Of a stretch of DNA of 37,757 bases, positions 4,407 through 37,757 are shown piece after piece; position 1 is the stretch's first letter, and the number at the start of each line of letters is the position of its first letter. The position numbers were made by a program, and so were the translations under genes. The notes below the pieces were generated by a model. It worked only from the letters and a program-made list of their open reading frames with translations, made no database searches and was not told where the DNA came from. The stretch comes from a virus, in the IMG/VR virus record IMGVR_UViG_3300042691_043480, positions 1 through 37,757 of that record; one strand, 5' to 3'.

Positions 4407-6248
4407 ATGGCAGAGAATAAACAAAACCCAGAAACACAAGACGAAAGTAATTACTGGTCTAGCGAAAGAGTAAATGAGCTGCTGAGAAAAGCAGACGAAG
4501 AAGGACTAGATTTTAAAAGCGTAGATAATCCATTTCACGACAATAATCCAGAATTTAAAAGAGCAAATATCCTTTTTGAATACACCAAAGAAGAATTAAT
4601 CGAAATAAAAAAATGCGCCGAAGACGTAACTTATTTTTCTAAGTATTGTCAGGTAATGACCGATACTGGTCTAAATTATATAAGCCTTAGAGATTATCAA
4701 ACTTCCGTACTTAAAGAATATCAAAATAATAGATTTAATATATTTTTAGCCCCTAGACAGGTTGGTAAATCTATAACTTCTTCTATAATTCTAGTTTGGT
4801 ATCTTCTTTTCAATCACGATAAGAATGCAATGATTCTCGCGAACGTGGGAGATACCGCGGAAGAGTTAATGGATAAAATAAAGCATATAATAAAAGGACT
4901 TCCTTTCTTTCTTAAACCTGGAATGCAGGTTAACAATGTGATGTCCATGAGGTTTGACAATGGATGTAGAATACTTGCTAAAACCACAACTAAAACTTCA
5001 GGTATTGGTTTTACCATTCATTTTCTTTATATGGATGAGTTTGCCCATATTAATCCAAACTTCATTGAAGCTTTCTTTAGATCTACTTATCCTACTGTAT
5101 CTTCTTCTAAGGTATCTAGAATCATAATAACTTCTACCCCTAATGGGATGAATAAATTTTATGAAATCTATCAGCTGGCTCTCGAAGGTAAAAATAGCTT
5201 TAATCCCATAAGAGTAGATTGGTGGCAGGTTCCAGGAAGGGACGAAGAATGGAAGCAAAAAGAAATTGCAAACCTTGGAGGAGAAGAACTTTTTAACCAA
5301 GAATATGGAAATCAATTTTTAAGTTCATCCACTCTTCTATTAGGATCTAATGAACTTAAGAAAATAAAAAAGAATGAATCCGAATTTTCGTGGAGAGAAA
5401 TAGAATGTCTACACGACACGGAAATAAATTACGAAAATTTATTATGGCATCCTAAATTTAATCTCGATGAATGCGACGAACAGGGAAAAAGGTTTGTTTT
5501 TTCAATAGATCTTAGTGAAGGTAATAAAGGAGATTATAGCGTAATTAATTTTTTTAAGCTTTCCCCTTTACCTAAATCCATCATAGAAAAAATTAACGAT
5601 TTTGAAGACGAATCAGATTTTTTTAGTTTGATACAGGTAGGGCTTTTTAGGGAAAATAATATAAATTTGGAAGACTTAATTAAAATAGTATCTACTTTAA
5701 TCCTCAAAGTATTTACTCCCGACAGAGTAAAAATAGCTTTAGAGATGAATTATAAAGGAGATATGTTTTACGAAAAATTAATATCCAAGGAAGATTTTTA
5801 TGATGAGATGTTTCTTTTTACCAAGCACACTGAAAATGCTAGAATAGCTAAGCCGGGTATAAAATATAACGAAAAAATAAAAATGAAATATTGCGAAATG
5901 CTAAGATCTCTAGTAAGAAAAGATAGGATAATAATAACGGAAAAAAAACATACGGTTCTAGAATTATTTACATTTGGACTTAATTCCAGGGGAACCTATT
6001 CTGCCCAAAGCGGACATGACGATGTAGCAATGACTTTAGTTAATCTTTCTGGGCTTTTCGACGGGTATGATTTTGGTCAGATGGTCGGAGAAGCATTCGA
6101 TGAGATAGAGGATAGCGATTACAAAAATATGATAATAAATAAAATAGAAGGCCTAAATTCTTTAGATTTTGATCCTGAAGGGAATTCTAAAAATATTTAC
6201 GTAACTAAAGAAGGGAAAAGTTATAAAGATTTTAGCGGTTTAATTTGA
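4407..6248 (+). CDS. terL: Terminase large subunit (packaging ATPase/nuclease), T4 gp17-like
   Basis: A 613-residue protein with all the landmarks of a TerL. Walker A is PRQVGKS (residues 116-122), Walker B LYMDE (207-211), and coupling motif C is STP (243-245). The C-terminal RNase-H-fold nuclease carries acidic residues at D368 (FSIDLSEG), E446 (LEMN) and D538/D539 (HDDVAM), matching the Asp-Glu-Asp triad of T4 gp17. It pumps DNA into the prohead through the portal and cuts the concatemer. Length is close to T4 gp17 (610 aa). The stop is TGA, one sign that TGA is not recoded here. The partner portals lie far downstream at 22898-26140, unlike the tighter T4 order. Confidence 0.97.
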   Translation: MAENKQNPETQDESNYWSSERVNELLRKADEEGLDFKSVDNPFHDNNPEFKRANILFEYTKEELIEIKKCAEDVTYFSKYCQVMTDTGLNYISLRDYQTSVLKEYQNNRFNIFLAPRQVGKSITSSIILVWYLLFNHDKNAMILANVGDTAEELMDKIKHIIKGLPFFLKPGMQVNNVMSMRFDNGCRILAKTTTKTSGIGFTIHFLYMDEFAHINPNFIEAFFRSTYPTVSSSKVSRIIITSTPNGMNKFYEIYQLALEGKNSFNPIRVDWWQVPGRDEEWKQKEIANLGGEELFNQEYGNQFLSSSTLLLGSNELKKIKKNESEFSWREIECLHDTEINYENLLWHPKFNLDECDEQGKRFVFSIDLSEGNKGDYSVINFFKLSPLPKSIIEKINDFEDESDFFSLIQVGLFRENNINLEDLIKIVSTLILKVFTPDRVKIALEMNYKGDMFYEKLISKEDFYDEMFLFTKHTENARIAKPGIKYNEKIKMKYCEMLRSLVRKDRIIITEKKHTVLELFTFGLNSRGTYSAQSGHDDVAMTLVNLSGLFDGYDFGQMVGEAFDEIEDSDYKNMIINKIEGLNSLDFDPEGNSKNIYVTKEGKSYKDFSGLI

Positions 6249-6317: not shown

Positions 6318-9300
6318 ATGGCAAGTAAGATTAAAATAGACTACTCTCAGTTTAAAGCTTCTGGAGTTTATACGTTGGAGTTTGACGCTTCCCAAAATGT
6401 TATACTAACATCGCAAACAATCCGTCTAGTTGTAGGATTCTCTAATATAGGACCTTTTAACACTCCGGTTTATATACCCGATGCTACGACAATGATAGCT
6501 ATATTTGGGGATATAGATAGATCTTTGGAAAATAAAGGATCTTTTTTCCACCGGTCTGTTTTCACATGTTTAAATCAGGGACCTGTATTCGCTTTGAATC
6601 TTCTTAAATTGAATGATGATGAATCTAGTGCATCTCCGGATAAGGTGACTTATAAATCTTTCTCCCTAGATACTGAGCAGTACAACGGGATAATTACGGA
6701 AAGACTTTATTCTTCTTATTATAACAAGGAAAGATTTTGGTTTCCAGATCCTGAATATTTTTTAGCAACTTTAAGTATTTCAGATCAAGGTAAACTCTTT
6801 AATTTAACCAATCTCGGAAAAAGCCCTATAAGTGTAATCGTTAGAAAATCTACCGATTCTACTACTCCTTTACTTGGATTTAATATTTTTGCTATAGATT
6901 GGTACGGGGCAAATAACGTTCCTTCTTTTATGCATCCTTATGATTACATATCTGATTATTTCATTGATGTAATAGCGGTGTCGGGCGATTGGACAAATTA
7001 TCAAGCTTTATCGGTAGATCCTAAATGGAATACTTATTTTACTAACAATGGATTTATCAAAAGCCGAATAGATTCATTTCTTTCTAGCCCAGATGTTAAT
7101 ATAGTAACTTCTGTTACTGGATGTATCATACCGGATTTTATAGATCTTAATGGAAATAATCAATACATACAAACCCTAGTAAATCAGAATACCCCATCTA
7201 CCGGATTATTCTGTGCAATAGATGAACAAGCATTTGATGATATATGTAACAATCCATATAAAATAGACCTAGTTGGAAATCATTTAATAGATGAATTATC
7301 AGGTGATAGAGATCTTGCAACCCCTAGGATTAAATTCTTAAGTTACGATCAGGTTCTAGTTGCAGATTATCTCTATACACAAAATGTTGTAGGAGTTACC
7401 GGATCTGCTGCTTTTTCTCCAATTACACCATCAGGCCCAACTGTTTTCACTACAGGAGCTAAAGTTGGTACTTTATTTTCTTTAACTTTAGGAGTTACTG
7501 GATCTACAGCTGGTGTTATTTACCAATCTTTTGAACCCTACAATTCTAATGCTTTTGATGGCGGTCTTCATTATTTGCAAACATCGGGAGTTACCGGAGC
7601 AACTGGAGGTATATCTTCAGCTTCTGAAAAAACTCAATTAAAAGATTTTTTAAGAGTAACTTCTTCGGACGACCAAAAATTCATACTAGGAGTAGTTCAA
7701 GGAATATCTGGATTAACAGGAGGACTTATAAACCAATATAACGAAGGAGACCTAGTTAAGCTTAAAGTTACCGGCACAAAAGACGTAGGTAGCGAACTGA
7801 GAATATATTTTACTCATCCTTTAGACATTTCATTTTATAGAGGACAGGGAATAGTAGTTTCTCCAACTTATAACTTAACGTCTTATAATACCGGAGCTTC
7901 GGGAAGTAATAGACCTTTTTATACGAATTCTTATCAATTCGGGGATTCCGATTATTTAGATATATCTAGTGTTTCTACACCTAATGGGGTAACTGGACCT
8001 AATGCTCCTTTAGGGGTTTCTAATGTTCTCGTAGGATACAATTCTTCTGATTTCTATCAGGATAATAAATATAACGAAATCACGGATGGAGATACTCTTT
8101 GGGTTAATTCTGACGGTTCTTCTTTACAATATATAGGATTTGAACAATCAGTAGATAGAGATCAATTTAATTTGGTTTATGCTAGAGCATTTACTAATGT
8201 TTCCAGAAGTAATAGTACAATTACGAACATATTGAATTTTGGAGCTTCTTATGCTTCTGATAATATAGGATTGCCAGTTTCTAGCCAGGCTATAGATATA
8301 ATTTCTCAAGCAGGAGGAATTTCTGAATTTGTTGATGCTACCCAAGTAAATTCTACTACTTTTACCGTTTCTGAAGATTCTAACGGAACTGTTCCTTTTT
8401 CAGTAGGGGATTTGGTAGTTTCTACAGATTTGGATATATGTGTTCCAGATACTGGAAATCAGCAACAAAGGTTGGCTAAAGTTACTACCGTAGCTGCTAC
8501 CACAACATCAGGAGTTTATACGGTTATATGCGCAAGACCAGTATTTTATTATTCGGGTATAAGCGGAGCAAGAGTTAATAAATTTAAATCCATTCCTGAA
8601 TTTACTACCTCTTTTGATTTTACTTACCTTTCAGGATTTACGATGAAAGAATCTCACAGACCGAACGGGACTGATGCAAGAGTTTCTGAAATCTTAGATG
8701 TTATGTTCGATACGAATATAGCTAAGACTTTAGCAGCTAAAGATATAATTAGCTTTAGATATATCGTAGATACATTTTCTGGACAGATATTACCTAATTC
8801 CAAATATCAATTGAGTATACTTGCTAAAAACAGACAGCAGGCTTTAGCTTTAATAAATGCTCCTTCTATAGCTCAATTTAGAAACAGTACAGATCCTAGA
8901 TTTACTAATGCACCAACTGCAGTAAACCCTTATCCAGCTTTAGAAACTAGATATATCGCAGATGGAGGTAATCTATCTTTGAATCCTTCCTATACGTTTA
9001 GCCTTCCTAGCGAAGCAGACGGATCTAAATATTGTGGATTTTTCTCTCCTTACATTACAATTAGGGAATCAAATAGAAATATAAATGTTCCTCCAGCAGC
9101 TTTTGTTTCTAATAACTATGTTAGAAAATTTGCAACAGGAGAACCATATGCTATAGTAGCAGGTCAAAAAAGAGGAGTTCTATCCGGAGGAAATATAGTT
9201 GGGGTTGAATACGATTTCACCGACGAGGATAGAGGAAATCTTGAACCTTTTGGGATAAACCCAATAATAAAAAGATCAGGAGTTGGTGTCGTAGTATTCG

Positions 9301-9674
9301 GAAACCAAACTGCTTATCAGACCGTAAATTCAGCATTTAATTTATTACATGTTAGAGATCTATTAATATCAGTAGAAACAGACGTGGAAACGATACTTGC
9401 TAACTATCTTTTTGATTTTAATGAAGATTCCATAAGGCTAGAAATAAAAACTTTGGTTGATAATTATTTAGATGGAGTTCAATCAGCAGGAGGAATTTAT
9501 GCTTATCAGACGGTAATCGATAGTTCTAATAATACCCCAGAAATCATAGATATGAATATGGGAGTTATTGATATCATTATAGAACCAGCAAGAGGAATAC
9601 AGAAATTTATAAATAGAATTACTGTTACTAGAACAGGAGGGATTGCTTCTGGAGGATTTATTCAATTCGTTTAA
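6318..9674 (+). CDS. gp18: Contractile tail sheath protein, T4 gp18-like, enlarged
   Basis: Encodes 1118 residues, far above T4 gp18 (659). The N-terminus (SGVYTLEFDASQNVILTSQT, then VGFSNIGPFNTPVYI) and the C-terminal core (VIDIIIEPARGIQKFINRI, then TVTRTGG) fit the sheath family, whose conserved C-terminal domain forms the inner helical core. It lies between terL and two tail tubes, the T4 order. The middle (~350-800) appears to be inserted or expanded surface domains with several Gly-Val-Thr-Gly motifs (GVTGS, GVTGATGG). Extra outer domains would decorate the sheath surface. The sheath contracts around the tube during infection. A class 1 promoter-like motif lies upstream. Confidence 0.9.
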   Translation: MASKIKIDYSQFKASGVYTLEFDASQNVILTSQTIRLVVGFSNIGPFNTPVYIPDATTMIAIFGDIDRSLENKGSFFHRSVFTCLNQGPVFALNLLKLNDDESSASPDKVTYKSFSLDTEQYNGIITERLYSSYYNKERFWFPDPEYFLATLSISDQGKLFNLTNLGKSPISVIVRKSTDSTTPLLGFNIFAIDWYGANNVPSFMHPYDYISDYFIDVIAVSGDWTNYQALSVDPKWNTYFTNNGFIKSRIDSFLSSPDVNIVTSVTGCIIPDFIDLNGNNQYIQTLVNQNTPSTGLFCAIDEQAFDDICNNPYKIDLVGNHLIDELSGDRDLATPRIKFLSYDQVLVADYLYTQNVVGVTGSAAFSPITPSGPTVFTTGAKVGTLFSLTLGVTGSTAGVIYQSFEPYNSNAFDGGLHYLQTSGVTGATGGISSASEKTQLKDFLRVTSSDDQKFILGVVQGISGLTGGLINQYNEGDLVKLKVTGTKDVGSELRIYFTHPLDISFYRGQGIVVSPTYNLTSYNTGASGSNRPFYTNSYQFGDSDYLDISSVSTPNGVTGPNAPLGVSNVLVGYNSSDFYQDNKYNEITDGDTLWVNSDGSSLQYIGFEQSVDRDQFNLVYARAFTNVSRSNSTITNILNFGASYASDNIGLPVSSQAIDIISQAGGISEFVDATQVNSTTFTVSEDSNGTVPFSVGDLVVSTDLDICVPDTGNQQQRLAKVTTVAATTTSGVYTVICARPVFYYSGISGARVNKFKSIPEFTTSFDFTYLSGFTMKESHRPNGTDARVSEILDVMFDTNIAKTLAAKDIISFRYIVDTFSGQILPNSKYQLSILAKNRQQALALINAPSIAQFRNSTDPRFTNAPTAVNPYPALETRYIADGGNLSLNPSYTFSLPSEADGSKYCGFFSPYITIRESNRNINVPPAAFVSNNYVRKFATGEPYAIVAGQKRGVLSGGNIVGVEYDFTDEDRGNLEPFGINPIIKRSGVGVVVFGNQTAYQTVNSAFNLLHVRDLLISVETDVETILANYLFDFNEDSIRLEIKTLVDNYLDGVQSAGGIYAYQTVIDSSNNTPEIIDMNMGVIDIIIEPARGIQKFINRITVTRTGGIASGGFIQFV

Positions 9675-9726: not shown

Positions 9727-10281
9727 ATGGCAGGATTACCACACTTCACGAATTCTCAGGCTTCCGTAAATAAATATGAGCCTATTTACCTTAATCAATT
9801 TGAGGCACTGATAACTTGTCCTAATGGAGTTGGTGGGGGAAATATTTTAATAGAGCACGTTACCAAAGTTAGTGGTCTATCCGTAGATAAAAGCCCAGGA
9901 TTAGCTACACAAAAATATAAGTTTGCAAAAAGAAATTATGCAGGTGCTAAACCATCAGAAACTACCATGAATGTTAGTATTTCATTTACGGTCAACCTAA
10001 ATGATTCTAACTCCATGTATGTCTTTAAAACTCTTAGACAGTGGTCAGATTTGATCTACAATCCTCTAACAGGTGCTATGGGACTTAAAAAAGATTATAC
10101 AGGAAATATAGTAATCTCTATTTTCAATAAGCAGGGAGACGTATATAGAAGAATTAATTGTCAAGATGTATTTCCTTTAAAGGCTCTTCCTGAAATGGGT
10201 TTAAACTATACGGACGAAGGTATATACACAATTAACGATATGGAATTTGCTGTTGATTACTGGACTGATTTATTTTTATAA
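9727..10281 (+). CDS. gp19: Tail tube protein, T4 gp19-like, copy 1
   Basis: A 184-residue protein whose hexamers should stack into the inner tail tube. It shares with its downstream neighbour the start MAGLPHFTNSxAS, YLNQFE, the block RQWSDLIYNPLTGAMGLKKD and the end DYWTD-x-FL. T4 gp19 is 163 residues. Position directly after the sheath matches T4. An AGATAAATATAC sequence at 9704 is a weak form of the class 1 motif. Only 12 bases separate it from copy 2, so both are made from one message. Whether both form the same tube cannot be read from sequence. Confidence 0.92.
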   Translation: MAGLPHFTNSQASVNKYEPIYLNQFEALITCPNGVGGGNILIEHVTKVSGLSVDKSPGLATQKYKFAKRNYAGAKPSETTMNVSISFTVNLNDSNSMYVFKTLRQWSDLIYNPLTGAMGLKKDYTGNIVISIFNKQGDVYRRINCQDVFPLKALPEMGLNYTDEGIYTINDMEFAVDYWTDLFL

Positions 10282-10293
10282 TTTTTAATTAAT

Positions 10294-10872
10294 ATGGCCG
10301 GATTACCACATTTTACTAATTCACTAGCTTCGAGAAATAATTACGAACCTGTTTACCTTAACCAATTTGAGGTTATTATAAGCCCACCTGCAGGAATTCC
10401 TCTTGCAGCTCAGAGATTTAACGGGGAAGGTATATTGGCACAAGGAATTAAAAGCATTTCTGGATTAGCTGTTGATATTGCACCTTCTGCAACTATAGAT
10501 CAAAATTATAAATTTGCTACTAGAAGATATGCAGGGGGTGAGCCTTCTACTACCGATATGACAGTTTCTATGGAATTTGAGGTTAACTTAAATCCTCAGT
10601 CTAATTCTATGGAGGTTTATAAAATTTTAAGACAATGGTCTGATTTAATTTATAATCCGCTAACCGGAGCTATGGGACTTAAAAAAGATTATGTAGGATC
10701 TATGGTAATTTCCATCTTTAATAAAAGAGGAGACGTTTTTAGGAGAGTCTCAATTCCTTCATGTTTTCCCTCAGAAGCTATCCCAGCAATGGATCTTGAT
10801 TATGAACAAGCTAATAATTACAGTATATCTCTTTCTTGGATATGCGATTATTGGACGGACACATTCCTATAA
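10294..10872 (+). CDS. gp19: Tail tube protein paralogue, copy 2
   Basis: 192 residues and clearly paralogous to 9727-10281: same N-terminal MAGLPHFTNS, same RQWSDLIYNPLTGAMGLKKD block and same DYWTD ending. It differs by an 8-residue gain near residues 33-50 (loop IPLAAQRFNGEGI) and by a divergent stretch before the C-terminus. T4 itself has gp54, a tube-like protein that caps the baseplate and starts tube growth, so one copy could be an initiator or terminator ring and the other the bulk tube protein. A strong terminator follows 18 bases later, closing the packaging-tail operon. Confidence 0.9.
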   Translation: MAGLPHFTNSLASRNNYEPVYLNQFEVIISPPAGIPLAAQRFNGEGILAQGIKSISGLAVDIAPSATIDQNYKFATRRYAGGEPSTTDMTVSMEFEVNLNPQSNSMEVYKILRQWSDLIYNPLTGAMGLKKDYVGSMVISIFNKRGDVFRRVSIPSCFPSEAIPAMDLDYEQANNYSISLSWICDYWTDTFL

Positions 10873-10954: not shown

Positions 10955-12034
10955 ATGAACAACCTATTAGGAATATCTCCCGAAGAATTATTAAGGAGCA
11001 AAGAATTAGCAGGGGGGTTAGAATACGATTCCATTCCCGAAGAAACCCAATCCCAAGAAGTACATTCCGGTTTACCTCCGGAAGAAAATAAATTGGAAGC
11101 GATTATAAAAGAAGAAAAAGAAGAAATTATACAGGAGATTATTCCTGAAAAAAAAGAAGAATCTTTTAATCCACAGGTCGAAGTAAAAGATTCGGTTTTT
11201 GAGATACACTGGAAAAATTTACCTATCCATCTTCTTCCTTCTAAGGGTTTATTCTACCCAGAAGGAACCCGAATGGCAATAAGACCTTGCGAAGTTAAAG
11301 AAATAAGACATTTTTCTACGATAGATGAGGACGATTCATTAGATATCGAAAGAAAGCTTTCTTTTGTTTTAGAGAGATGCTTAAGGATAGATTTTCCCCA
11401 AGAAGGTGTAGTGAGTTATAAAGACCTTAAACAAGAAGATAGGTTTTATATAATAATGGCTATAAGGGATCTTACTTTCTTAAGGGGAGAAAATTCTTTA
11501 ATCCTAATACCTAATAGAAAATGTAAAAATACCGAGGAATGTAAAATTTCGGAAGGGTTTGAATTAAGATCCGGAAATCTTACCTCTTATGAATTAGATA
11601 ACGAAATTTTAAAGAGGTATAATCCAGAAACAAGATCTTTTATGTTTACGTTTAAGGATACTAAAGAATCTTTTGAAATATTTGTACCTAGTATAGGAGT
11701 TACACAAGCTCTTTCTGATTTTTCATCTGCGTGTTATTCTAGAAAAATATCGATAGAAGATGGATTTTTAGAAATAGCTCCTTTTATTATACCCGAATGG
11801 AGAGGACTTGATTTCGATACTATCCTTTCTATGATGAGGTCCAGCTCTCAATGGAGCAAAAAAGAATTTAGCCTTCTTTATCAAATATCCGAAAAAATAA
11901 AGATAGGAACTAAAACCGAAGCAAAACAAAAATGCCAAGTGTGCGGTGAAGGGGAGGTCACCGCTGAAATTACCTTTCCCGGAGGGATCAGATCTCTTTT
12001 CCTTATTTCAGATATCTTTAGTCAACTACTTTGA
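10955..12034 (+). CDS. gp26: Baseplate hub assembly protein, T4 gp26-like
   Basis: 359 residues. An acidic, disordered N-terminus (1-75, many Glu/Lys) precedes a folded part beginning WKNLPIHLLPSKGLFYPEGT and MAIRPCEVKEIRHFSTID, typical of gp26-like baseplate proteins (the LPSKG-x-FY and RP-x-x-VKE elements). The C-terminus holds CQVCGEGE (Cys327, Cys330), half of a possible zinc site. T4 gp26 (208 aa) helps build the central hub. The reading frame ends CTA CTT TGA, and a second frame overlaps it by 89 bases and continues to 12206. The CTT TGA end copies the RF2 +1 frameshift site, so a fused gp26-partner protein may be made. Confidence 0.7.
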   Translation: MNNLLGISPEELLRSKELAGGLEYDSIPEETQSQEVHSGLPPEENKLEAIIKEEKEEIIQEIIPEKKEESFNPQVEVKDSVFEIHWKNLPIHLLPSKGLFYPEGTRMAIRPCEVKEIRHFSTIDEDDSLDIERKLSFVLERCLRIDFPQEGVVSYKDLKQEDRFYIIMAIRDLTFLRGENSLILIPNRKCKNTEECKISEGFELRSGNLTSYELDNEILKRYNPETRSFMFTFKDTKESFEIFVPSIGVTQALSDFSSACYSRKISIEDGFLEIAPFIIPEWRGLDFDTILSMMRSSSQWSKKEFSLLYQISEKIKIGTKTEAKQKCQVCGEGEVTAEITFPGGIRSLFLISDIFSQLL

Positions 12035-12206
12035 TATAAAATTTAGACTTTGGAAAGAACATAAAGTAGATCCAATTTTTATAGAATCTTTACCTTTCTA
12101 CGAATACCAAATTTGGATAGAAAAAATAAACGAATTTATGGAAATAGAATCTCAAGAAGATATGGAAAACAAAGGATTTAAACAAGTATTCAGCCTCAAG
12201 AAATAG
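11946..12206 (+). CDS. Out-of-frame partner of the gp26-like gene (+1 frame), possibly frameshift-expressed
   Basis: Open frame of 86 codons from a GTG at 11946, overlapping the gp26-like gene by 89 bases. Convincing protein-like sequence starts after the overlap: FDIKFRLWKEHKVDP, then FIESLPFYEYQIWIEKINEF, ending FSLKK. The pattern (helix, LPFYEY, WIEKIN helix) recalls small hub-assembly or tail-chaperone proteins; in T4, gene 51 follows gene 26. There is no ATG in the frame near the overlap and no Shine-Dalgarno, so it is either started at GTG or made by a +1 ribosomal shift at CTT TGA (12029-12034) or CCC GGA (11978-11983). Confidence 0.55.
   Translation: MKGRSPLKLPFPEGSDLFSLFQISLVNYFDIKFRLWKEHKVDPIFIESLPFYEYQIWIEKINEFMEIESQEDMENKGFKQVFSLKK
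12029..12035 (+). other. Candidate +1 programmed frameshift site (CTT TGA T)
   Basis: In the frame of the gp26-like gene the last codons are CTT TGA. Slippage of the Leu tRNA from CUU to UUU moves the ribosome to GAT ATA AAA, entering the frame that runs to 12206. Bacterial prfB (RF2) uses CUU UGA C for the same +1 shift. No AGGGGG-like stimulator sits just upstream. Confidence 0.4.
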
Positions 12207-13725: not shown

Positions 13726-14289
13726 ATGAGTAAAAATAGTGAAGAGAGGATTTGTGTAGATTCTGCCCCTGAATATTTAAAATTAAACCCAGATTTAATA
13801 TTTAAAGAATATTATTCTATAAAAAATAATTCTATTGAATTTACTATTAAAAATTCTAAAGAAACAAGATCCGATCTCATATACCTGAAAATGGCAAATA
13901 CGTGGGGATCTTCTTCCCACTGCAAAAGGATGAAAGTCGGATGCCTAGTCGTTAAAGATAAATCTATAATATCCGATGGGTACAACGGATCTCCTTCTGG
14001 ATTCCCGAATGTATGCGAGAGCGAGGACATGGTCACTCTCCCGTACGTACTCCATGCGGAAGCCAACGCGATAACTAAATTAGCTAAAAGTACTCAGAGC
14101 TCTATAGGTTCTACCATGTATGTTACTCTATCTCCTTGCTTTGAATGCGCTAAATTAATAATACAATCAGGAATAAAGAGAATTGTTTTCTGTGAGGTTT
14201 ACAGAAACACAGATCCTTTAATTTTTCTATCCGAAGGGGGAATAGAAATAACAAGGATAAGTAATGACTACTTATCTAAAATTCAGTAA
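13726..14289 (+). CDS. Deoxycytidylate (dCMP) deaminase
   Basis: 187 residues from the ATG at 13726; a TTG nine bases earlier is less likely as start. It converts dCMP to dUMP for dTTP synthesis. The zinc site is HAEANA (His110, Glu112) plus SPCFEC (Cys138, Cys141), the standard deaminase arrangement, with Gly-Tyr-Asn-Gly (85-88) shaping the substrate pocket. An N-terminal addition of ~45 residues has no visible motif. The stretch 14010-14070 around the active-site His-Ala-Glu is unusually GC-rich for this genome. It is a nucleotide-metabolism gene inside a structural block, directly before a sigma factor gene. Confidence 0.92.
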   Translation: MSKNSEERICVDSAPEYLKLNPDLIFKEYYSIKNNSIEFTIKNSKETRSDLIYLKMANTWGSSSHCKRMKVGCLVVKDKSIISDGYNGSPSGFPNVCESEDMVTLPYVLHAEANAITKLAKSTQSSIGSTMYVTLSPCFECAKLIIQSGIKRIVFCEVYRNTDPLIFLSEGGIEITRISNDYLSKIQ

Positions 14290-14310
14290 TTTTTTAAATT
14301 CTATAAACAA
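14290..14310 (+). promoter_or_regulatory. Class 2 promoter-like motif before the ECF-like sigma gene
   Basis: T-run (14290-14295) then TTCTATAAACAA, with CTATAA 20 bases before the ATG at 14321, the same spacing as at 550 and 27727. It favours 14321 over the upstream ATC/ATG-type starts as the true start. Confidence 0.45.
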
Positions 14311-14320
14311 TAATTATCTT

Positions 14321-14947
14321 ATGAAGAGACAAAACAACATCCAGTTCTTAGCGGAATCTTTTATCGAGTCTAAAAGCTCAAAATCTTTTAAAAACCTTTA
14401 CGAAAGGTTAAAACCGGGAATAACAAACCATTGCTATTTAATATTAAAAAGTCAAGAGCTAGCAGAAGATGCTTTTTCGAATACGATGACAAAAATATGG
14501 CAAAAGATAGAACAATATGACAAGGACAGAGCTAATTTTTCAACCTGGACCTATAATATTGCTAGAAACGAATCCCTATTAATACTAAAAACAGGAAAAA
14601 GATTTTTTTCTCACAGCGATGAAGAAATGGAATATTTCTCAAATAAATCAACATTAGGAGATTTAGGGGGACAATATTTTATGGAAGAAGATCCTGCATA
14701 TTTTTCTCTATTTCAGGATAAAGATATAGATAGTGTTTATGAATCGGTACTTGAAGAGATAAGAGAACTTCCCGAAATCTATAGAGAAATTATGGTTGAC
14801 CGTGAAATAAACGGAATGAAATACAAAGATATTGCTGAAAAATATGGTATAAAGAAAAGGTCTATTGCTACAAGAATCCGAAGAGCAAGAGCAAGAATTA
14901 GAAAAAAGATGGACCCGAAACAAACTCCTAAAAAGAAAGTAAAATAA
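14321..14947 (+). CDS. RNA polymerase sigma factor, ECF-like (sigma-2 plus sigma-4)
   Basis: 208 residues from the ATG at 14321; an upstream in-frame start at 14264 would overlap the deaminase and lies before a promoter-like motif. Region 2 (~23-90) includes LAEDAFSNTMTKIWQKIEQYD and FSTWTYNIARNE, the classic -10-binding and core-binding pattern. Region 4 (~140-197) has LPEIYREIM, then YKDIAEKYGIKKRSIATRI, a helix-turn-helix. The linker lacks region 3, as in ECF factors. The Arg-rich end (RRARARIRKKM) is typical. It would redirect the host polymerase to phage promoters. With the gp55-like factor at 21420, the phage has two specificity factors. Which promoter class it reads is unknown. Confidence 0.9.
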   Translation: MKRQNNIQFLAESFIESKSSKSFKNLYERLKPGITNHCYLILKSQELAEDAFSNTMTKIWQKIEQYDKDRANFSTWTYNIARNESLLILKTGKRFFSHSDEEMEYFSNKSTLGDLGGQYFMEEDPAYFSLFQDKDIDSVYESVLEEIRELPEIYREIMVDREINGMKYKDIAEKYGIKKRSIATRIRRARARIRKKMDPKQTPKKKVK

Positions 14948-17791: not shown

Positions 17792-18466
17792 ATGGAAAAT
17801 CAGAATGATGATATATTAAATATAGATGGAGGAAGTTCTCTAAATTCAAGTTCTGAAATATCAGGAGGTAATTCTCAATATCCATTAAATCCCCAAGGCC
17901 CAGGATCTACTGGAGGATTTTTTACCAGATACACTAATGTTGCTTTAATCAGCAAGGATCTAAAGAGAATTAATGCTACATTTAGAAGATTTAACGATCG
18001 GCCAAAAGTTAAATTCATAAAAGAATACTATTCGGTGATAAAGAAAGAAGAGACGATGGATAAAGTTTCTCTTTCTGATTTTTTCCATCCTATCCAATCT
18101 TTTTCGGATTACCAAAAACAGACAATAGTAATAGACCCTTTAACCACAATAAATCTAGATCCTTCCTCTTTTTATTCTACCGAAGGCGAAGTATCTCTTA
18201 TAGTAGCAAAAGCCGAATATTTGCCAGAAGCTGACAATAACGAAAGAATGTTATTCTGGGATTACGGAAATACCCCTAGAAAAATAATGGGATCTATTAT
18301 GATATTATCAGGATCCATAAAAAATGGATCTGCTTGGCACGGATGGGATATCGATCCATTTTCAGATTATTCACACAGTACTCCTGCGGATATAAACGAA
18401 GGGGGAATTTCTTTTACCAATCCCACAGAAAAAACAGTAAAATTAACAATCTTAACCGCTAACTAA
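17792..18466 (+). CDS. Beta-rich structural protein, paralogue A
   Basis: 224 residues. A disordered Gly/Ser/Asn start holds a collagen-like PGSTGG (~36-42). The C-terminal half (~125-224) shares its pattern with the next gene: [EG]-x-VS-[LF]-I, W-[DE]-Y, then KIM-[GV]-[SL]-x-x-LSG, GW-[DN]-I, GGI-x-F-x-NP and a final beta strand (KLTILTAN). This looks like a jelly-roll or immunoglobulin-like fold used in decoration or fibre proteins. Stop and next start overlap (TAATG). Function unknown; virion surface or tail is likely by composition. Confidence 0.55.
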   Translation: MENQNDDILNIDGGSSLNSSSEISGGNSQYPLNPQGPGSTGGFFTRYTNVALISKDLKRINATFRRFNDRPKVKFIKEYYSVIKKEETMDKVSLSDFFHPIQSFSDYQKQTIVIDPLTTINLDPSSFYSTEGEVSLIVAKAEYLPEADNNERMLFWDYGNTPRKIMGSIMILSGSIKNGSAWHGWDIDPFSDYSHSTPADINEGGISFTNPTEKTVKLTILTAN

Positions 18467-18951
18467 TGGCAACTAGACCCGTAAAATGTCCATACGACGA
18501 AGCTTCTGGATTTAGATTCAATAGGGGATATTTAGTTTTAGATACTCCTACTACCAATTATCCTGAAAAGTTTATAAGATTCGATGATATGTTCGAAGAA
18601 ATAAATTCATACTCTAGACTTAAAGTAAATCTAACCCCTTCTTCTTGCTATTTGTTAAGTCAAACGGATATTTCGGATACTGAAGGATTTGTTTCTTTTA
18701 TATTGGTAAAATCTATTTTTCCTGATACTACTCTAGAAACTAGAAAATATCTAACTTGGGAATATCAAGGAGGAATTTATAACATGGGGAAAATTATGGT
18801 TTTAAGCGGAGCTAATATTACCGATTTCTCTTCTGAATCCGCAGGATGGAATATATCCCAGCCCGGAACAGTTTATTCGGATGGAGGAATTATATTTTGT
18901 AATCCCCATTCCGATATTACAATTAAATTAGAAATTCTTATTGCAAGATAA
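18466..18951 (+). CDS. Beta-rich structural protein, paralogue B
   Basis: 161 residues and homologous over its C-terminal ~90 residues to the preceding gene: WEYQGG where A has WDYGN, KIMVLSG where A has SIMILSG, GWNIS where A has GWDID, and GGIIFCNP where A has GGISFTNP. The N-terminus (KCPYDEASGFRFNRGYLVLD) differs from A's and has no Gly/Ser tail. The overlapping start codon suggests 1:1 coupled translation with A, fitting two partners of one complex. No family recognised. Confidence 0.55.
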   Translation: MATRPVKCPYDEASGFRFNRGYLVLDTPTTNYPEKFIRFDDMFEEINSYSRLKVNLTPSSCYLLSQTDISDTEGFVSFILVKSIFPDTTLETRKYLTWEYQGGIYNMGKIMVLSGANITDFSSESAGWNISQPGTVYSDGGIIFCNPHSDITIKLEILIAR

Positions 18952-21419: not shown

Positions 21420-21779
21420 ATGGCGAAAATATATGTCAAAAATAAAGATCTTCTAGTAGCTTTTAAAGATTCTAAAGAGAAGGGAAGTTTAAATCCTGAA
21501 ATAGTTAATATGTTCTATTTAATTATAGACGGGATATCCAAAAAAATGTCTTACAAGGACCCATCAGATAAAGAAGATTGCATGGCTTTTGCTATGGAGG
21601 ATCTTTGCAAATATTGGGATAGATTCAATCCTGAAAAATCAGATAATGCTTTTTCTTATTTTACCCAGATAGCTAAGAATGGTTTTGCTAAAGGCTGGAA
21701 GAAAATTCATCCGCCAAAAAATCCAAAGACTATACCTTTCAGCTATATTACCGGCGAGGATAACACATATAACGTATAA
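21420..21779 (+). CDS. gp55: Late transcription sigma factor, T4 gp55-like
   Basis: 119 residues. It matches T4 gp55 in order and pattern: start YVKNKDLLVAF (T4 YVNNKELLQAI), middle LIIDGISKKMSY (T4 MLIAEGLSKRFNF), then ED-x-x-x-x-AMEDL...W--FNPEKSDNAFSYFTQI (T4 [28 protein letters not shown]), ending FAKGWKKIHP (T4 FVQRIKKERK). T4 gp55 binds the polymerase core and reads TATAAATA at late promoters. The protein is shorter than T4 gp55 (185 aa), with the C-terminal clamp-binding tail shortened or moved. It likely drives the GATATATA-type promoters of the structural genes. Confidence 0.8.
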   Translation: MAKIYVKNKDLLVAFKDSKEKGSLNPEIVNMFYLIIDGISKKMSYKDPSDKEDCMAFAMEDLCKYWDRFNPEKSDNAFSYFTQIAKNGFAKGWKKIHPPKNPKTIPFSYITGEDNTYNV

Positions 21780-21788
21780 TATAGAAAT

Positions 21789-22274
21789 ATGACCGATATA
21801 AAAAAAGTAAAACCTAACGGGGAATACAAATCAGGAAAATTCGTACCGAAAAATCCTGATAAATATATCGGTGATATACATAATATCATATTTAGGTCAT
21901 CGTGGGAGCAAAGATTTTGTATTTACTGTGATACCAATGAATCCATATTAAAATGGAGCTCCGAGCCTCTAAAGATCCCCTACTACAATCCATTGGATAA
22001 GAAGGATCACGAATATAATGTAGATTTTTATATGAAAACCCTAAATAGCGACGGAACGGAGCAGGAATGGATAATAGAGATAAAACCAGAGAAGCAAACA
22101 CAAAAACCTGTTTATGAAGGAGCTATGACCGTATCTAAATTAAAAGCTTATAACAGAAATATGCAGATATGGATAACTAATCAATCTAAATTTAAAGCAG
22201 CAAAATTATGGGCTGAGCAAAGAGGATTTAGATTCGGGGTAATAAATGAGAATTTTTTATTTAAAGGGAAATGA
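21789..22274 (+). CDS. gp4: Head completion protein / nuclease, T4 gp4-like
   Basis: 161 residues with strong visible similarity to T4 gp4 (150 aa): KFVPKNPDKYIGD (T4 KWVPKNISKYRGD), FRSSWEQRF (T4 YRSNWEKFF), ILKWSSEPLKIPY (T4 IIAWGSETAVIPY), VDFYMK (T4 MDIWMK), and the nuclease-like IEIKPEKQTQKP (T4 IEIKPKKETQPP). The E-x-K dyad and upstream Asp suggest a PD-(D/E)XK-type nuclease fold. In T4, gp4 is needed to finish filled heads before tail joining. The start follows the gp55-like gene by 9 bases and its stop overlaps the next ATG. Confidence 0.92.
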   Translation: MTDIKKVKPNGEYKSGKFVPKNPDKYIGDIHNIIFRSSWEQRFCIYCDTNESILKWSSEPLKIPYYNPLDKKDHEYNVDFYMKTLNSDGTEQEWIIEIKPEKQTQKPVYEGAMTVSKLKAYNRNMQIWITNQSKFKAAKLWAEQRGFRFGVINENFLFKGK

Positions 22275-22867
22275 AAAACTTTGAAGAATTACTAAAAAAA
22301 TATTCTTCAGAATACAAAAATCAGAATGAGATAATGAAAGAATCTAATGATTTTTTCACGAAAAATTATTTAGAAAAATCCAAATATTCAGATTTCACTC
22401 TTCCTTTTGTCCCGGGAATGATATATTCTTTTGAATATAGAACACCATCTAAAATATCGGAAAAAAGAAAATTTATAAACAGAAACCCTATTTTTTTATT
22501 TCTTAATTATATAAAGACTCAAGAAGGAGAAAATGTTTTACATGGAATAGATTTTTCTACTGTACCTTTAGAAATAAGAGAAATCATATTAACTAGGATC
22601 TGGAATGCATTTAAAGATCAAATAGTTAAAAATTCAGAATCTTCAGGGGGAAGATCTGCTATTGGATTGACCCCAATTAATATGGATTCTATGCTGAATA
22701 AAACCGGATATAGAAAATCTATTTTTGGATTTAAATATAAATATTTTTATAACATTAAAGAAATAAAATCCGAAGATTGGGTAAAAATTCCTTTCCTGGA
22801 ATTAAATAAGTTCGAGGGCCTGAATTCTTTTGAGATATATAAAGAATACAAATCGAAATTAAAATAG
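22271..22867 (+). CDS. Conserved-looking phage protein, unknown (between gp4 and portals)
   Basis: 198 residues, starting inside the gp4 stop (ATGA overlap). It begins with a helical, Lys/Asn-rich section, then PFVPGMIYSFEYRTPSKI and KRKFINRNPIFLFLNYI, a Gly-x-x-x-Phe-x-Tyr and Pro-rich pattern, and later DFSTVPLEIREIIL. A domain with this order (G-x-I-x-x-F-x-Y ... P-x-I-F ... G-I-x-F-x-x-x-P-x-x-x-R) occurs in T4-like phage proteins of uncertain role. It does not resemble T4 gp53. Tight coupling to gp4 and the portal suggests head maturation or neck assembly. Function not claimed. Confidence 0.55.
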   Translation: MKNFEELLKKYSSEYKNQNEIMKESNDFFTKNYLEKSKYSDFTLPFVPGMIYSFEYRTPSKISEKRKFINRNPIFLFLNYIKTQEGENVLHGIDFSTVPLEIREIILTRIWNAFKDQIVKNSESSGGRSAIGLTPINMDSMLNKTGYRKSIFGFKYKYFYNIKEIKSEDWVKIPFLELNKFEGLNSFEIYKEYKSKLK

Positions 22868-22897: not shown

Positions 22898-24508
22898 ATG
22901 GCAGGATTCGTAGAAAATAATAAACCGTCAAGTCCAGGAGCAATAGATCGAATAAGACAATCGGTAAAAAATCTTAGTACTTTCGGGATGAAATACGATG
23001 ACATGGTCATAAGAAATTCCCAGGCGGTTGGAGTAACTGAAGCCAGTTTTATAAATAAAGATGGGCATGCCGGTAAGGAGGATGAAAATCTATCTTGGGC
23101 TTTAGCGAAACAAGACATAAGCACAAAACAATATATCACCTATTTTGATAAAGATTATAAAGGAAAAAGAGATTATTTAAGAAAATTTTCTTTAAATCCT
23201 GAAATAGAATGGGTTTTAGACACTATATGCGATGAATCTATTTCTTACGACCCAGCTAATTATTTTGCATACCCTTCTTTTTTGGATCTTACCGATATAA
23301 ATGAAAAATTTAAAGATGATCTTTACGATTCCTACAAAAAATTATATGATATATGGGGATTTTCTGATGATATAACTGCATGGCAATATTATAGACAATT
23401 TTTAGTAGATGGATTTTTATCATTTGAGATAATATTTGACGACGAAGGAAAAAATATAATAGGATTTAAAGAATTAGATCCTATTACTCTAGTTCCTAGT
23501 GTAGAAAAACAACCAGATGGGAGTTTTCTTAGTACCTGGACACAATACCCTCAAGACCCTAAAAAAAGAAGAATACTTTACGAACCTCAAATAATATACA
23601 TTTCCTATGCTAAAGGAAATGCAATATCCAGGATAAGTTACATCGAGAGACTGATAAGACCTTTTAATATACTCAGAACTATAGAATACACTAGAGTAAT
23701 ATGGTCGGTCATGAATTCGCAGTTTAGAATGAAAATGACAATTCCTATAGGAACAAAATCGGTTCAGAAGGGAATGCAGACTTTAGGAGAATTGATGAGC
23801 ATTTATAAAGAAGATTTTGACTTTAATGATACTACAGGAGAACTATTAATAGACGGAAGACCAAAAATACAATTCTATAAGAATTATCTAATGCCTTCCG
23901 GACAAGGTGGAACCCCGACAATAGAGCCTATAAATAACGAAGGACCAAATTTAAATGATTCTAGTCCTTTGAATTATTTTTTCGATAGATTTATACAGGA
24001 AAGTAAAATACCGCCTTCTAGATTCTCCACGCCCGAGGGCGGAAGCTCGGCTGCTTACTCGAACGTCGCGGAAGGATTCGATAAAGATGAGATAAGGTTT
24101 TTTAAATTCGTAGAAAGATTAAGAACTGTTTTCCAGGACATAATGATTAAGCCATTATGGGTTCAAATGGTCAGAAAGCATAAAGAGTTAGAAAAAGATT
24201 TCATTTTTAAATCTCAATTGGGACTAGATTTCTTCTCAGATAATCCTTTTAAACTCAATCAGGAAATAGATGTTATAAATAAAAGAAAAGAATCTGTTAC
24301 CGCTATGATTGGATTAATGGGAGATGATGAGAAACCTTATTTTTCTGTACCTTTTCTTGTTGAAAATTTCTTAGGAGTAGATAAAAAAGATTTAAAGGTA
24401 AATGAGGAAGTAAAAGAGAGAAAAAAGAAAGAAAAAGAAAAAGAAGCTAAAAAGGGAGGAGGAGAGAAGAAAGAAGAAGGAGGAGAAACCCCGGCAGTAA
24501 CAATATAA
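22898..24508 (+). CDS. gp20: Portal protein, T4 gp20-like, copy 1
   Basis: 536 residues; the length and pattern fit T4 gp20 (524). It has MKYDDMVIRNSQAVG near residue 30, LDTICDESISYDP, WQYYRQFLVDGFLSFEIIFD, GFKELDPITLVP, IIYISYAKGNAISRISYIER, and the C-terminal FFKFVERLRTVFQDI...KPLW. These are portal core and wing elements. Twelve copies form the vertex through which DNA is packed and ejected. The tail end is charged and Gly-rich (GGGEKKEEGGETPAVTI). A GC-rich patch at 24030-24075 codes for STPEGGSSAAYSNVAEG. The second portal starts 9 bases later. Confidence 0.94.
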   Translation: MAGFVENNKPSSPGAIDRIRQSVKNLSTFGMKYDDMVIRNSQAVGVTEASFINKDGHAGKEDENLSWALAKQDISTKQYITYFDKDYKGKRDYLRKFSLNPEIEWVLDTICDESISYDPANYFAYPSFLDLTDINEKFKDDLYDSYKKLYDIWGFSDDITAWQYYRQFLVDGFLSFEIIFDDEGKNIIGFKELDPITLVPSVEKQPDGSFLSTWTQYPQDPKKRRILYEPQIIYISYAKGNAISRISYIERLIRPFNILRTIEYTRVIWSVMNSQFRMKMTIPIGTKSVQKGMQTLGELMSIYKEDFDFNDTTGELLIDGRPKIQFYKNYLMPSGQGGTPTIEPINNEGPNLNDSSPLNYFFDRFIQESKIPPSRFSTPEGGSSAAYSNVAEGFDKDEIRFFKFVERLRTVFQDIMIKPLWVQMVRKHKELEKDFIFKSQLGLDFFSDNPFKLNQEIDVINKRKESVTAMIGLMGDDEKPYFSVPFLVENFLGVDKKDLKVNEEVKERKKKEKEKEAKKGGGEKKEEGGETPAVTI

Positions 24509-24517
24509 GAATAAAAG

Positions 24518-26140
24518 ATGGCAGGATTTTTAGATTATCAACAACCAAATAGATCTGCTTTCGGGAATATAATAAGAAATCTCGGAAGGATATCTAGCTT
24601 TGGTATGAAATACGACGATATGGTCGTTAGAAATTCCCAGGCTATAGGAAAAACTGAAAGCTCTTTTTTTAATTCGGAGGGAACTGGTTTTACCCAAGAT
24701 GATGCTTTTAAATGGATACTTTCCCACCAAGACGTAAAAATAAGAAAATACATTGCTTATTTTGATCGGGATTATGCGGAAAAAAGAAAGTTTCTTAGAA
24801 AATTTGCTCTTAACGGGGAAATAGAATTTATTCTAGACACGGTTTGTGATGAATCTATAACCTACGACGATAGAAATTTCTTTGCTACTGCATCTACTTT
24901 AAATATAGATCTTAAAGATAAAATATTAGATAAAATAACGGAACACTATAATAGGCTTTATAACGTTTTTGGATTTCAAAATTCTAATTTGGCTTGGCAG
25001 TATTTTAGACAGCTTTTGATTGATGGATTTTTAGCTTTTGAAATTATCTACGACAATAAAGGAAAAGAAGTAATAGGGTTTAAAGAATTAGATCCAACTT
25101 CTCTTCAGCCTATGGTGGAAAAAATTGGGGAGAACGATTATCAGCAATTCTGGATACAATATCCGGCTAATCCCCAAATGACTAGAAAATTAACCAACGA
25201 ACAAATTATATACATTTCATATGCTAAAGGGAATGCTGTTTCAAGAGTAAGCTATGCCGAAAGGCTCATAAGATCCTATAATATTCTTAAGATAATGGAA
25301 AATACCAGAATTATATGGAATGTTATGAATGCTTCGTATCGTCTTAAATTTATAATTCCGACCGGAACTCAATCCCAACAAAAAGCTTTACAAACTCTAG
25401 GACAGGTAATGTCTAATTACAAAGAGGATATCTCTATAAATGATAATTCAGGGGAGTTGACCATAAACGGAAAACCAAAAGTTCAATTTTATAAAAATTA
25501 TCTATTCCCAGAAAAAGACGGACAAACCCCAGATATACAATCAATGAATCCTAGTGGACCCGATTTCAATATAATGGATAATGTTCTTTATTTTTTCAAC
25601 AAACTTAAGATGGATTCTAAAGTTCCTTATGCTAGATTTTCATCTAGATCATCTGCTCCTATAAATTATCAAACCGGGGTAGATCAATTACAGAGGGATG
25701 AAATTAGATTTGAAAAATTTCTCAGAAGACTTAGATCTATATTCCAAGAAATATTAGTTAAACCTCTTTACATACAAATGTGCTTAGATCACCCGGAACT
25801 AGCAAAGGATAGAAATTTTAAAAGTAAATTAGGGCTTAATTATCACAGGGAAAGTGAATTGGAAGAAATGATTCAAATGGGAGGATTTACGAAAAGAATA
25901 GAATTTGTAAATGGCCTTTCTGAGATAAAAATGAAAATAGGAGAAACAGAAACCCCGTATTTCGATAAAGAATTTCTTATAAATAGGTATTTAGGGATTA
26001 CCCCGGATCAAGCTAAAACTAATGATGAGTATAAGAAAAAAGAAGCTAAAGAAGCAGAAAAAGCAGCTAAAGAAGGAGGAGGAGAAGCTGCAGGGGGAGA
26101 ATCTGCAGGGGGAGAAGCTGCTCCAGCACCTACGATATAA
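24518..26140 (+). CDS. gp20: Portal protein paralogue, copy 2
   Basis: 540 residues, paralogous along its whole length to copy 1: FGMKYDDMVVRNSQAIGKTE, LDTVCDESITYDD, WQYFRQLLIDGFLAFEIIYD, IIYISYAKGNAVSRVSYAER and QEILVKPLYIQM. The GC-rich segment of copy 1 is replaced by SSRSSAPINYQTGVDQ. The tail is again Gly/Glu/Ala-rich and ends APAPTI, like TPAVTI in copy 1. Both open frames are full-length with no obvious decay, so both are likely functional. A mixed ring, or two stage-specific portals, are options. A terminator follows. Confidence 0.93.
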   Translation: MAGFLDYQQPNRSAFGNIIRNLGRISSFGMKYDDMVVRNSQAIGKTESSFFNSEGTGFTQDDAFKWILSHQDVKIRKYIAYFDRDYAEKRKFLRKFALNGEIEFILDTVCDESITYDDRNFFATASTLNIDLKDKILDKITEHYNRLYNVFGFQNSNLAWQYFRQLLIDGFLAFEIIYDNKGKEVIGFKELDPTSLQPMVEKIGENDYQQFWIQYPANPQMTRKLTNEQIIYISYAKGNAVSRVSYAERLIRSYNILKIMENTRIIWNVMNASYRLKFIIPTGTQSQQKALQTLGQVMSNYKEDISINDNSGELTINGKPKVQFYKNYLFPEKDGQTPDIQSMNPSGPDFNIMDNVLYFFNKLKMDSKVPYARFSSRSSAPINYQTGVDQLQRDEIRFEKFLRRLRSIFQEILVKPLYIQMCLDHPELAKDRNFKSKLGLNYHRESELEEMIQMGGFTKRIEFVNGLSEIKMKIGETETPYFDKEFLINRYLGITPDQAKTNDEYKKKEAKEAEKAAKEGGGEAAGGESAGGEAAPAPTI

Positions 26141-36070: not shown

Positions 36071-37757
36071 ATGAAAGGATTAAAGTCTCTAAATGAAGAT
36101 TTCGTTTTTATACTGGAAAGGCAGTCTACCATATTAGAATCTAAAAAAAATTCAAGTGACGAATATGTATTAGAAGGTATAGCAGCTGTTTTTGGTAAAG
36201 AAAATAACAATCATAGAATATATGAAGAAAATGAATATCTTCCTCATCTAGATTATCTTCAGGATAAAATAAAACAGCAGAGACTTTTAGGAGAATTAGA
36301 CCATCCAGAAAAATTTGATATTTCTTTAAAAAATATTTCTCACTTAGTTACAGATTTAAATTACAATAAAGGAGATAGAAATCTAAAAATTAAAGTTAAA
36401 TTATTAGATACCCCAGCGGGAAGAATAGCAAAGAGTTTAGTTGATGCTGGTATTCCTCTTTCCATTTCTTCTAGAGCTGCTGGATCGGTGGGATCAGATA
36501 AAAAAGTTCAAATCAAAAAAATATTTACTTACGATTTAGTTGCAGATCCAGGATTTAAGAATGCACAGCTAGAAAGAGTTTATGAAAGCTGCGGATACAG
36601 TCCATTTGAATACTCAAGAATAAAAAGTAATAGCATAGTAAATCACCTAGAATGTCTAAATGAAAGCTTAGGTTTAAAAAATCAGGATTCAATGATGATA
36701 TATAGAGTTGATAATGATGAAGAATTTGAAAAACTATTAAACAAGAAAGAAAAAACAACCAACCTTATGGAAAGAAATAATAACGAATTTGTTACATCAG
36801 AAGAGCTTGATCAATATTCTATCTTCTTAAAGAAAGAAATGGATTCAATGAAATCTGAAATGTCTAGATTAAGAAACACATCGGTTTCAGAATCTGATAG
36901 TAGTGATGCTGATTTTAGAATTTCTAAACTTGAAAAATATGCTGAATATTTAGCAGAGTCTTTAGAAAATACTATCAAGTATAACGAGTATCTTGCAGAA
37001 AATTTAGATAAATCTATTTCCTATTCTAAATATCTTGCGGAAAATGTAGATAAGAACATATCTTATTCTAAGTACCTTGCAGAGAACATGGATCAAAATA
37101 TTTCGTACACTGAATATCTTGCAGAGAATTTAGATAAATCTATTTCTTATTCTAATTACTTAGGAGAGAATGTAGATAAGAATATTTCTTATACTGAATA
37201 CGTAGCAGAAAGTGTTGATAAGAATATAGAATATTCTAAATACATAGCAGAAAAATTGGATCAAAATATTTCTTATTCTGAATACCTTGCTGAGAACGTG
37301 GATAAAAATATTTCTTATTCTGAGTATTTAGCTGAGAATATAGATACTAATATTTCTTATACTGAATATTTAGCTGAGAATTTAGATAATAGCATTAAAT
37401 ATTCTGAGCACATCGCAGAAAATTTAAATAACAATATTTCTTACTCTGAGCACATTGCAGAAAATGTTAATAATAACATTGAATATTCTGAATACTTAGG
37501 TGAAAACCTAAATAACGGAATTGAGTACACAGAGTACTTAGCAGAAAAACTTGGAAAATCAATTGAGTATTCTGAGTACATTGCAGAATCTATCGAAGGA
37601 AAAGATAGATTTGCAGGACAAAAGATAAATGAAAATGTGGATCTTACTGCAGCATCGGGATTAAAATCATCGGGATATGCTGGTAGTTACACAGATTTAT
37701 CTTCAAAAATCGATAGCTTACTAGAATCAGTTCAAACCCAAAAGACTGAAGCTACTT
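36071..37757 (+). CDS. gp21: Prohead protease fused to repeat scaffold (3' end outside window)
   Basis: The frame is open from the ATG to the window edge (562 codons). The N-terminal ~200 residues fit the T4 gp21 / herpesvirus-type protease fold: EGIAAVFGKENNNHRIYEEN, then LGELDHPE (catalytic-type His) and GIPLSISSRAAGSVG (Ser nucleophile region), DLVADPGF. T4 gp21 is 212 aa and separate from scaffold gp22. Here a linker (~200-288) leads into a 14-residue repeat array and a further helical part. An internal ATG at 36767 could give a separate scaffold product. The start MKGLKSLNE-DF carries its own L-x-E cleavage site. The major capsid gene is expected downstream. Confidence 0.85.
   Translation, partial: MKGLKSLNEDFVFILERQSTILESKKNSSDEYVLEGIAAVFGKENNNHRIYEENEYLPHLDYLQDKIKQQRLLGELDHPEKFDISLKNISHLVTDLNYNKGDRNLKIKVKLLDTPAGRIAKSLVDAGIPLSISSRAAGSVGSDKKVQIKKIFTYDLVADPGFKNAQLERVYESCGYSPFEYSRIKSNSIVNHLECLNESLGLKNQDSMMIYRVDNDEEFEKLLNKKEKTTNLMERNNNEFVTSEELDQYSIFLKKEMDSMKSEMSRLRNTSVSESDSSDADFRISKLEKYAEYLAESLENTIKYNEYLAENLDKSISYSKYLAENVDKNISYSKYLAENMDQNISYTEYLAENLDKSISYSNYLGENVDKNISYTEYVAESVDKNIEYSKYIAEKLDQNISYSEYLAENVDKNISYSEYLAENIDTNISYTEYLAENLDNSIKYSEHIAENLNNNISYSEHIAENVNNNIEYSEYLGENLNNGIEYTEYLAEKLGKSIEYSEYIAESIEGKDRFAGQKINENVDLTAASGLKSSGYAGSYTDLSSKIDSLLESVQTQKTEAT
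36938..37600 (+). repeat. 42-base (14-residue) tandem repeat array, 15 full units plus a partial
   Basis: In-frame units with consensus Y-S-E-Y-L-A-E-N-L-D-K-N-I-S. Tyr at 1, Tyr/His at 4, Ala/Gly at 6 and Ile at 13 are almost fixed; DNA varies mostly at silent sites. Amphipathic helix with a 14-residue (two-heptad) period, a scaffold-rod design. Confidence 0.92.

Follow-up and report, generated by a model that had tools for sequence, protein, structure and literature searches.

A tandem pair of T4-type portal genes, accompanied by a tandem tail-tube pair, is strictly retained in a lineage of megaphages

Introduction

Known portal rings are homo-oligomers, and how a 12-fold ring works with a 5-fold motor and a 6-fold tail is a long-standing question. 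Here we asked why a phage locus should carry two adjacent, full-length genes for the DNA gateway ring that other tailed viruses build from one gene. The window, meaning the whole stretch of DNA analysed, is a complete IMG/VR record of 37,757 bases and probably a fragment. The original prediction held that two intact gp20-like portal genes lie side by side at this locus, that both look functional, and that they may build a mixed ring, give two head forms, or include an assembly initiator. Our analysis confirmed the observation of the two genes, whereas the interpretation is only partly supported: that both copies are functional has strong support, and the mixed ring fits best among the three options without being shown. 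That the pair defines a whole lineage of very large uncultured phages, and that the tail-tube gene was duplicated on the same branch, had not been recognized.

Results

Two portal genes within a T4-like morphogenesis cluster

The portal and tail-tube genes of the window, and its terminase, sheath, head closure, possible end protector and prohead protease genes, all lie on the plus strand. Portal paralog A (22898–24508, 536 aa) is followed, after a 9-base spacer (24509–24517), by portal paralog B (24518–26140, 540 aa), each running from ATG to TAA. Both match Pfam PF07230 Portal_T4 (179.9 bits for A and 220.4 bits for B, cut-off 22.9), PHROG 213 (portal), and the T4 gp20 structures in the PDB, and they are 48% identical to each other over 507 residues (E 4e-179). 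The motifs FGMKYDDMV, ISYAKGNA and DGFL-x-FEI are present in both. The original prediction placed the differences between the copies in one loop and in their charged, Gly-rich tails; this requires correction, as A and B differ throughout, with the excess concentrated in the channel loop, second stem helix and tunnel loop, in addition to the charged C-terminal tails.

The surrounding gene order is that of a T4-like morphogenesis cluster. It comprises a gp17-like terminase large subunit (4407–6248; Pfam Terminase_6N), the expected motor partner of the portal clip; a tail sheath of 1118 aa (6318–9674; PHROG 34521); two tail-tube paralogs, T1 (9727–10281, 184 aa) and T2 (10294–10872, 192 aa), both matching the tail-tube profiles PHROG 3629 / 45 (E 1e-8 to 3e-7); a gp4-like head closure protein (21789–22274; PHROG 218, E 1e-46); a possible gp2-like DNA end protector just upstream of A (22271–22867; PHROG 429, E 2e-4); and a gp21-like prohead protease (36071–37757; Pfam Peptidase_S77, PHROG 207) that runs off the window. 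The protease carries a long C-terminal stretch of about 15-residue repeats (YSEYLAENVDKNIS-like), perhaps a fused scaffold or core domain. Overlapping ORFs right after the tube pair (10955–12034 and 11946–12206) recur in the relative L157 (3760–4818 and 4736–4990) in the same relative frame and with a DNA-conserved overlap, a possible programmed-frameshift tail assembly chaperone. A further adjacent pair of related genes of unknown function (17792–18466 and 18466–18951; E 2e-10) is also adjacent in the contigs G002 (373 kb) and G001. One sigma-70-like factor and one ORF with a sub-threshold sigma-70 region 2 match (14264–14947 and 21420–21779) lie inside the cluster.

The pair is lineage-wide and descends from one old duplication

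We scanned IMG/VR with A and B and recovered 50 distinct full-length A–B pairs, including that of the window, together with 18 distinct single-portal relatives, two of which (L150 and L151) are GenBank huge-phage records. In each pair A lies upstream of B, both frames are open, and the spacer is 1–23 bases. A further scan biased towards the deepest branch gave 80 loci, of which 75 carry A then B and the other five are cut by contig ends. The arrangement occurs in well over 100 independent contigs, which excludes chance and an assembly artefact. Twelve long tandem contigs (127 to 430 kb) were searched whole and hold exactly two portal genes each. Five relatives hold one full portal, namely four IMG/VR contigs of 97 to 152 kb and LR756500, which has one further weak fragment. 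A 190-aa ORF on the minus strand of LR756500 (about 256 kb, locus L243) matches only portal clip residues 273–331. LR756501 has one full portal of 609 aa plus a partial copy: a 342-aa portal-like ORF (L242 1021–2046, about 142.0–143.0 kb of LR756501) keeps the wing, first stem and second stem/tunnel parts but lacks the N-terminus, clip and crown, and represents a clip-less portal paralog separate from the tandem pair. Named T4-like phages inspected (T4, PTm1, PAU and MA9V-1) and the inspected regions of the huge-phage records LR756502 and LR756504 show one portal. A single portal gene per phage is usual in the gp20 family, although not part of the protein-family definition, and every tandem-clade record searched whole departs from it, with two full-length copies.

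Phylogenetic trees place all A copies in one group (support 100/96) and all B copies in another (85/70), with A and B together at 100/99 to the exclusion of the single-portal relatives and with mirror-image subtrees, indicating one duplication followed by strict co-inheritance. Identity within A, and within B, falls to about 0.50, so the pair is old. The median A–B identity within a genome (0.50) is no higher than that between genomes (0.497), ruling out homogenization of the core by gene conversion. The C-terminal ends (24440–24505 in A and 26075–26137 in B), which often terminate in -VTL or -VTI, behave differently, being more alike within a genome than across genomes (0.50 against 0.35 over the last 7 residues). 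Codons match in only 84 of 139 shared residues, so both local conversion and a shared binding partner remain possible.

To assess constraint, we estimated dN/dS for 23 close pairs and obtained a median omega of 0.021 for A and 0.019 for B. Relaxed selection on one copy (dN/dS near 1), which had been named beforehand as an outcome that would speak against two functional genes, is thereby rejected, and no loss or disruption was seen in any locus not cut by a contig end. A redundant recent duplicate or a decaying copy is likewise refuted by these data and by the 48% identity between the copies. The relative evolutionary rates of A and B covary (rho 0.55, second of 21 gene pairs), although this is weak evidence, as B with the gp4-like gene scores higher (0.61).

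Differences between A and B concentrate in segments that line the DNA channel in T4

Using the T4 domain limits from Sun et al. 2015 (PMC4493910), we compared A and B of the same genome domain by domain. Identity is 0.56 in wing 1, 0.74 in stem 1, 0.57 in the clip and 0.58 in wing 2, but only 0.29 in stem 2 plus tunnel loop, although this segment is conserved within A (0.70) and within B (0.76). The crown is also low (0.31) but is variable within each group (0.54–0.56). Columns conserved in both groups but different between them make up 11 of 25 conserved columns in the channel loop, stem 2 and tunnel loop, against 29 of 199 elsewhere (Fisher p 0.001). In the window, this region corresponds to 23927–24082 of A (about residues 344–395) and 25541–25693 of B (about residues 342–392). 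In T4, the channel and tunnel loops line the DNA channel (PMC4493910). The clip tip, which binds the packaging motor in T4, is similar in both copies, and A keeps the K296-equivalent clip tip as strictly as B.

An AF2 model of A (pLDDT 65.6) aligns to T4 gp20 with Z 22–23 over about 400 residues, consistent with the wing–stem–clip–stem–wing–crown topology, though with an rmsd of about 9.5 and low pLDDT in the clip. For B, the same topology is supported by the Pfam match and by the order of secondary structure, which was the same in both halves of a model of the in-frame A–B read-through fusion. This fusion was modelled to look for an interface, but its confidence was low (pLDDT 55, pTM 0.57) and it yielded no usable one.

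The tail-tube gene is duplicated in the same contigs

In the same 12 tandem-portal contigs the tube gene is also a tandem pair, whereas it is single in the five single-portal relatives with a tube match; a sixth, fragmentary record had no match. The tube tree puts T1 and T2 each in one group with the single tubes outside, with moderate support (78/86 and 88/76). Among 132 further tube loci, 130 have T1 then T2 and two are cut at the contig end. Because the portal and tube duplications fall on one branch, this is one association rather than many.

We next examined whether other structural genes were doubled. In the 373-kb contig G002, no clear paralog of the sheath, terminase, major capsid protein or neck adaptor was found. 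The 1118-aa sheath also has no paralog in the window, shows no internal repeat, and is similarly long in single-portal relatives, arguing against sheath duplication or internal doubling. In the 462-kb relative LR756500 (about 182–193 kb, locus L184), several mutually related genes of 542–634 aa surround the single tube and the 1036-aa sheath gene; they did not match the sheath in the search made. A search of GTDB genomes for a host returned one weak fragment only.

Discussion

A mixed portal ring is the favoured reading

We propose that in the ancestor of this megaphage lineage the gp20 portal gene was duplicated in tandem, on the same tree branch on which the tail-tube gene was also duplicated, and that both portal copies became indispensable and specialized. 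The simplest account of two full-fold, equally constrained, never-separated, co-oriented paralogs of a ring protein is co-assembly into one mixed dodecamer, in its simplest form an alternating A6B6 ring in which A and B would place different channel and tunnel loops around the DNA; the tube would likewise use two kinds of subunit. What the sequences establish is the tandem pair and its single old origin, its strict co-retention across lineages whose A (or B) copies are only about 50% identical, equally strong purifying selection, an intact predicted portal fold, divergence concentrated in channel-lining segments, and the co-occurring tube duplication. Co-assembly in one ring, a dodecamer at one vertex that docks the terminase and then the neck, alternation, symmetry and the consequence for DNA passage are inferred from sequence and predicted models alone, and we hold the mixed ring to be only somewhat more likely than not, as strict co-retention would also follow if A and B had separate essential jobs. 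A more far-reaching and tentative possibility is that the DNA conduit is heteromeric from head to tail, with an alternating A6B6 portal of true 6-fold symmetry and a two-protein tail tube. In T4 the portal and gp13 are 12-mers and gp14 is a hexamer (PMC12270204), so an A6B6 ring would be truly 6-fold and would ease the 12-to-6 symmetry step between portal and tail; to our knowledge it would be the first natural heteromeric portal.

Several alternatives fit less well but are not excluded. A division of labour between two homomeric assemblies in one infection, with one paralog forming the virion portal and the other an assembly initiator, a procapsid-stage ring or a second stacked ring, would agree with two essential-looking copies diverged at channel-lining positions; B is closer to T4 gp20 (phmmer 78 against 46 bits for A), so that B could be the classical portal and A the specialist. 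We consider this unlikely, since A keeps the whole fold and clip tip, both copies show equal constraint and correlated rates, and the tube duplication is left unexplained, although separate essential roles for two homo-rings cannot be excluded by sequence. Two virion types, for example two head sizes or two tails in which A is perhaps paired with T1 and B with T2, would account for the joint duplication of portal and tube. This appears less likely still, given the absence of clear capsid, sheath, terminase or neck adaptor paralogs in the 373-kb contig, and because a dispensable second particle form should be lost in some lineages, whereas none of more than 100 loci lacks a copy other than through a contig end. 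It is also doubtful that one copy has moved outside the portal ring, to terminase regulation, scaffold nucleation or another ring of the neck: a non-conduit role would free the channel and tunnel segments to diverge, yet these segments are conserved within each group and thus under selection in both copies, and the rest of the fold is equally kept.

A lineage that has kept two specialized portal paralogs together with two tube paralogs offers a natural experiment, as it shows which portal parts can diverge (channel and tunnel loops) and makes it testable whether strict 12-fold equivalence is needed. The pair is also a simple genomic marker for an apparently undescribed clade of huge phages.

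Comparison with known systems

Searches of the open-access literature, which leave most subscription papers uncovered, found no phage described with two portal genes or a heteromeric portal. Among recently described huge phages, moraphages (PMC12619734) are T4/Lak-related with predicted Bacteroidota hosts; neither their main text nor that of the Jug phages (PMC12363816) mentions tandem portal or tube genes. In the phage collection, the nearest relatives of both portals are the huge uncultured phages LR756500 (462 kb) and LR756501 (735 kb) and the Prevotella Lak phages (33–46% identity), which have one full-length portal and, in the two LR records, one tube. The nearest record, LR756500, reaches only 44–46%, so the tandem clade appears to have no member there, although records near the window may be left out of that search.

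The T4 gp20 portal protein (PF07230; PDB 3ja7, 6uzc, 9lu7) shares family, predicted fold and place in the morphogenesis cluster with A and B, but T4 and every other T4-like relative examined has one full portal gene forming a 12-fold homomeric ring, rather than two full-length paralogs. The T4 capsid paralogs gp23/gp24 and the tube-related proteins gp19/gp48/gp54 provide a precedent for structural paralogs sharing one T4-type virion; those paralogs sit in different places, whereas the portal is a single ring, so two paralogs must share it or take turns. The SPP1 tail tube, built from gp17.1 and gp17.1*, is a precedent for two related proteins mixed in one DNA conduit; there, the second form is a frameshift product of one gene and only the tube is involved, while here separate diverged genes are found and the portal is duplicated as well.
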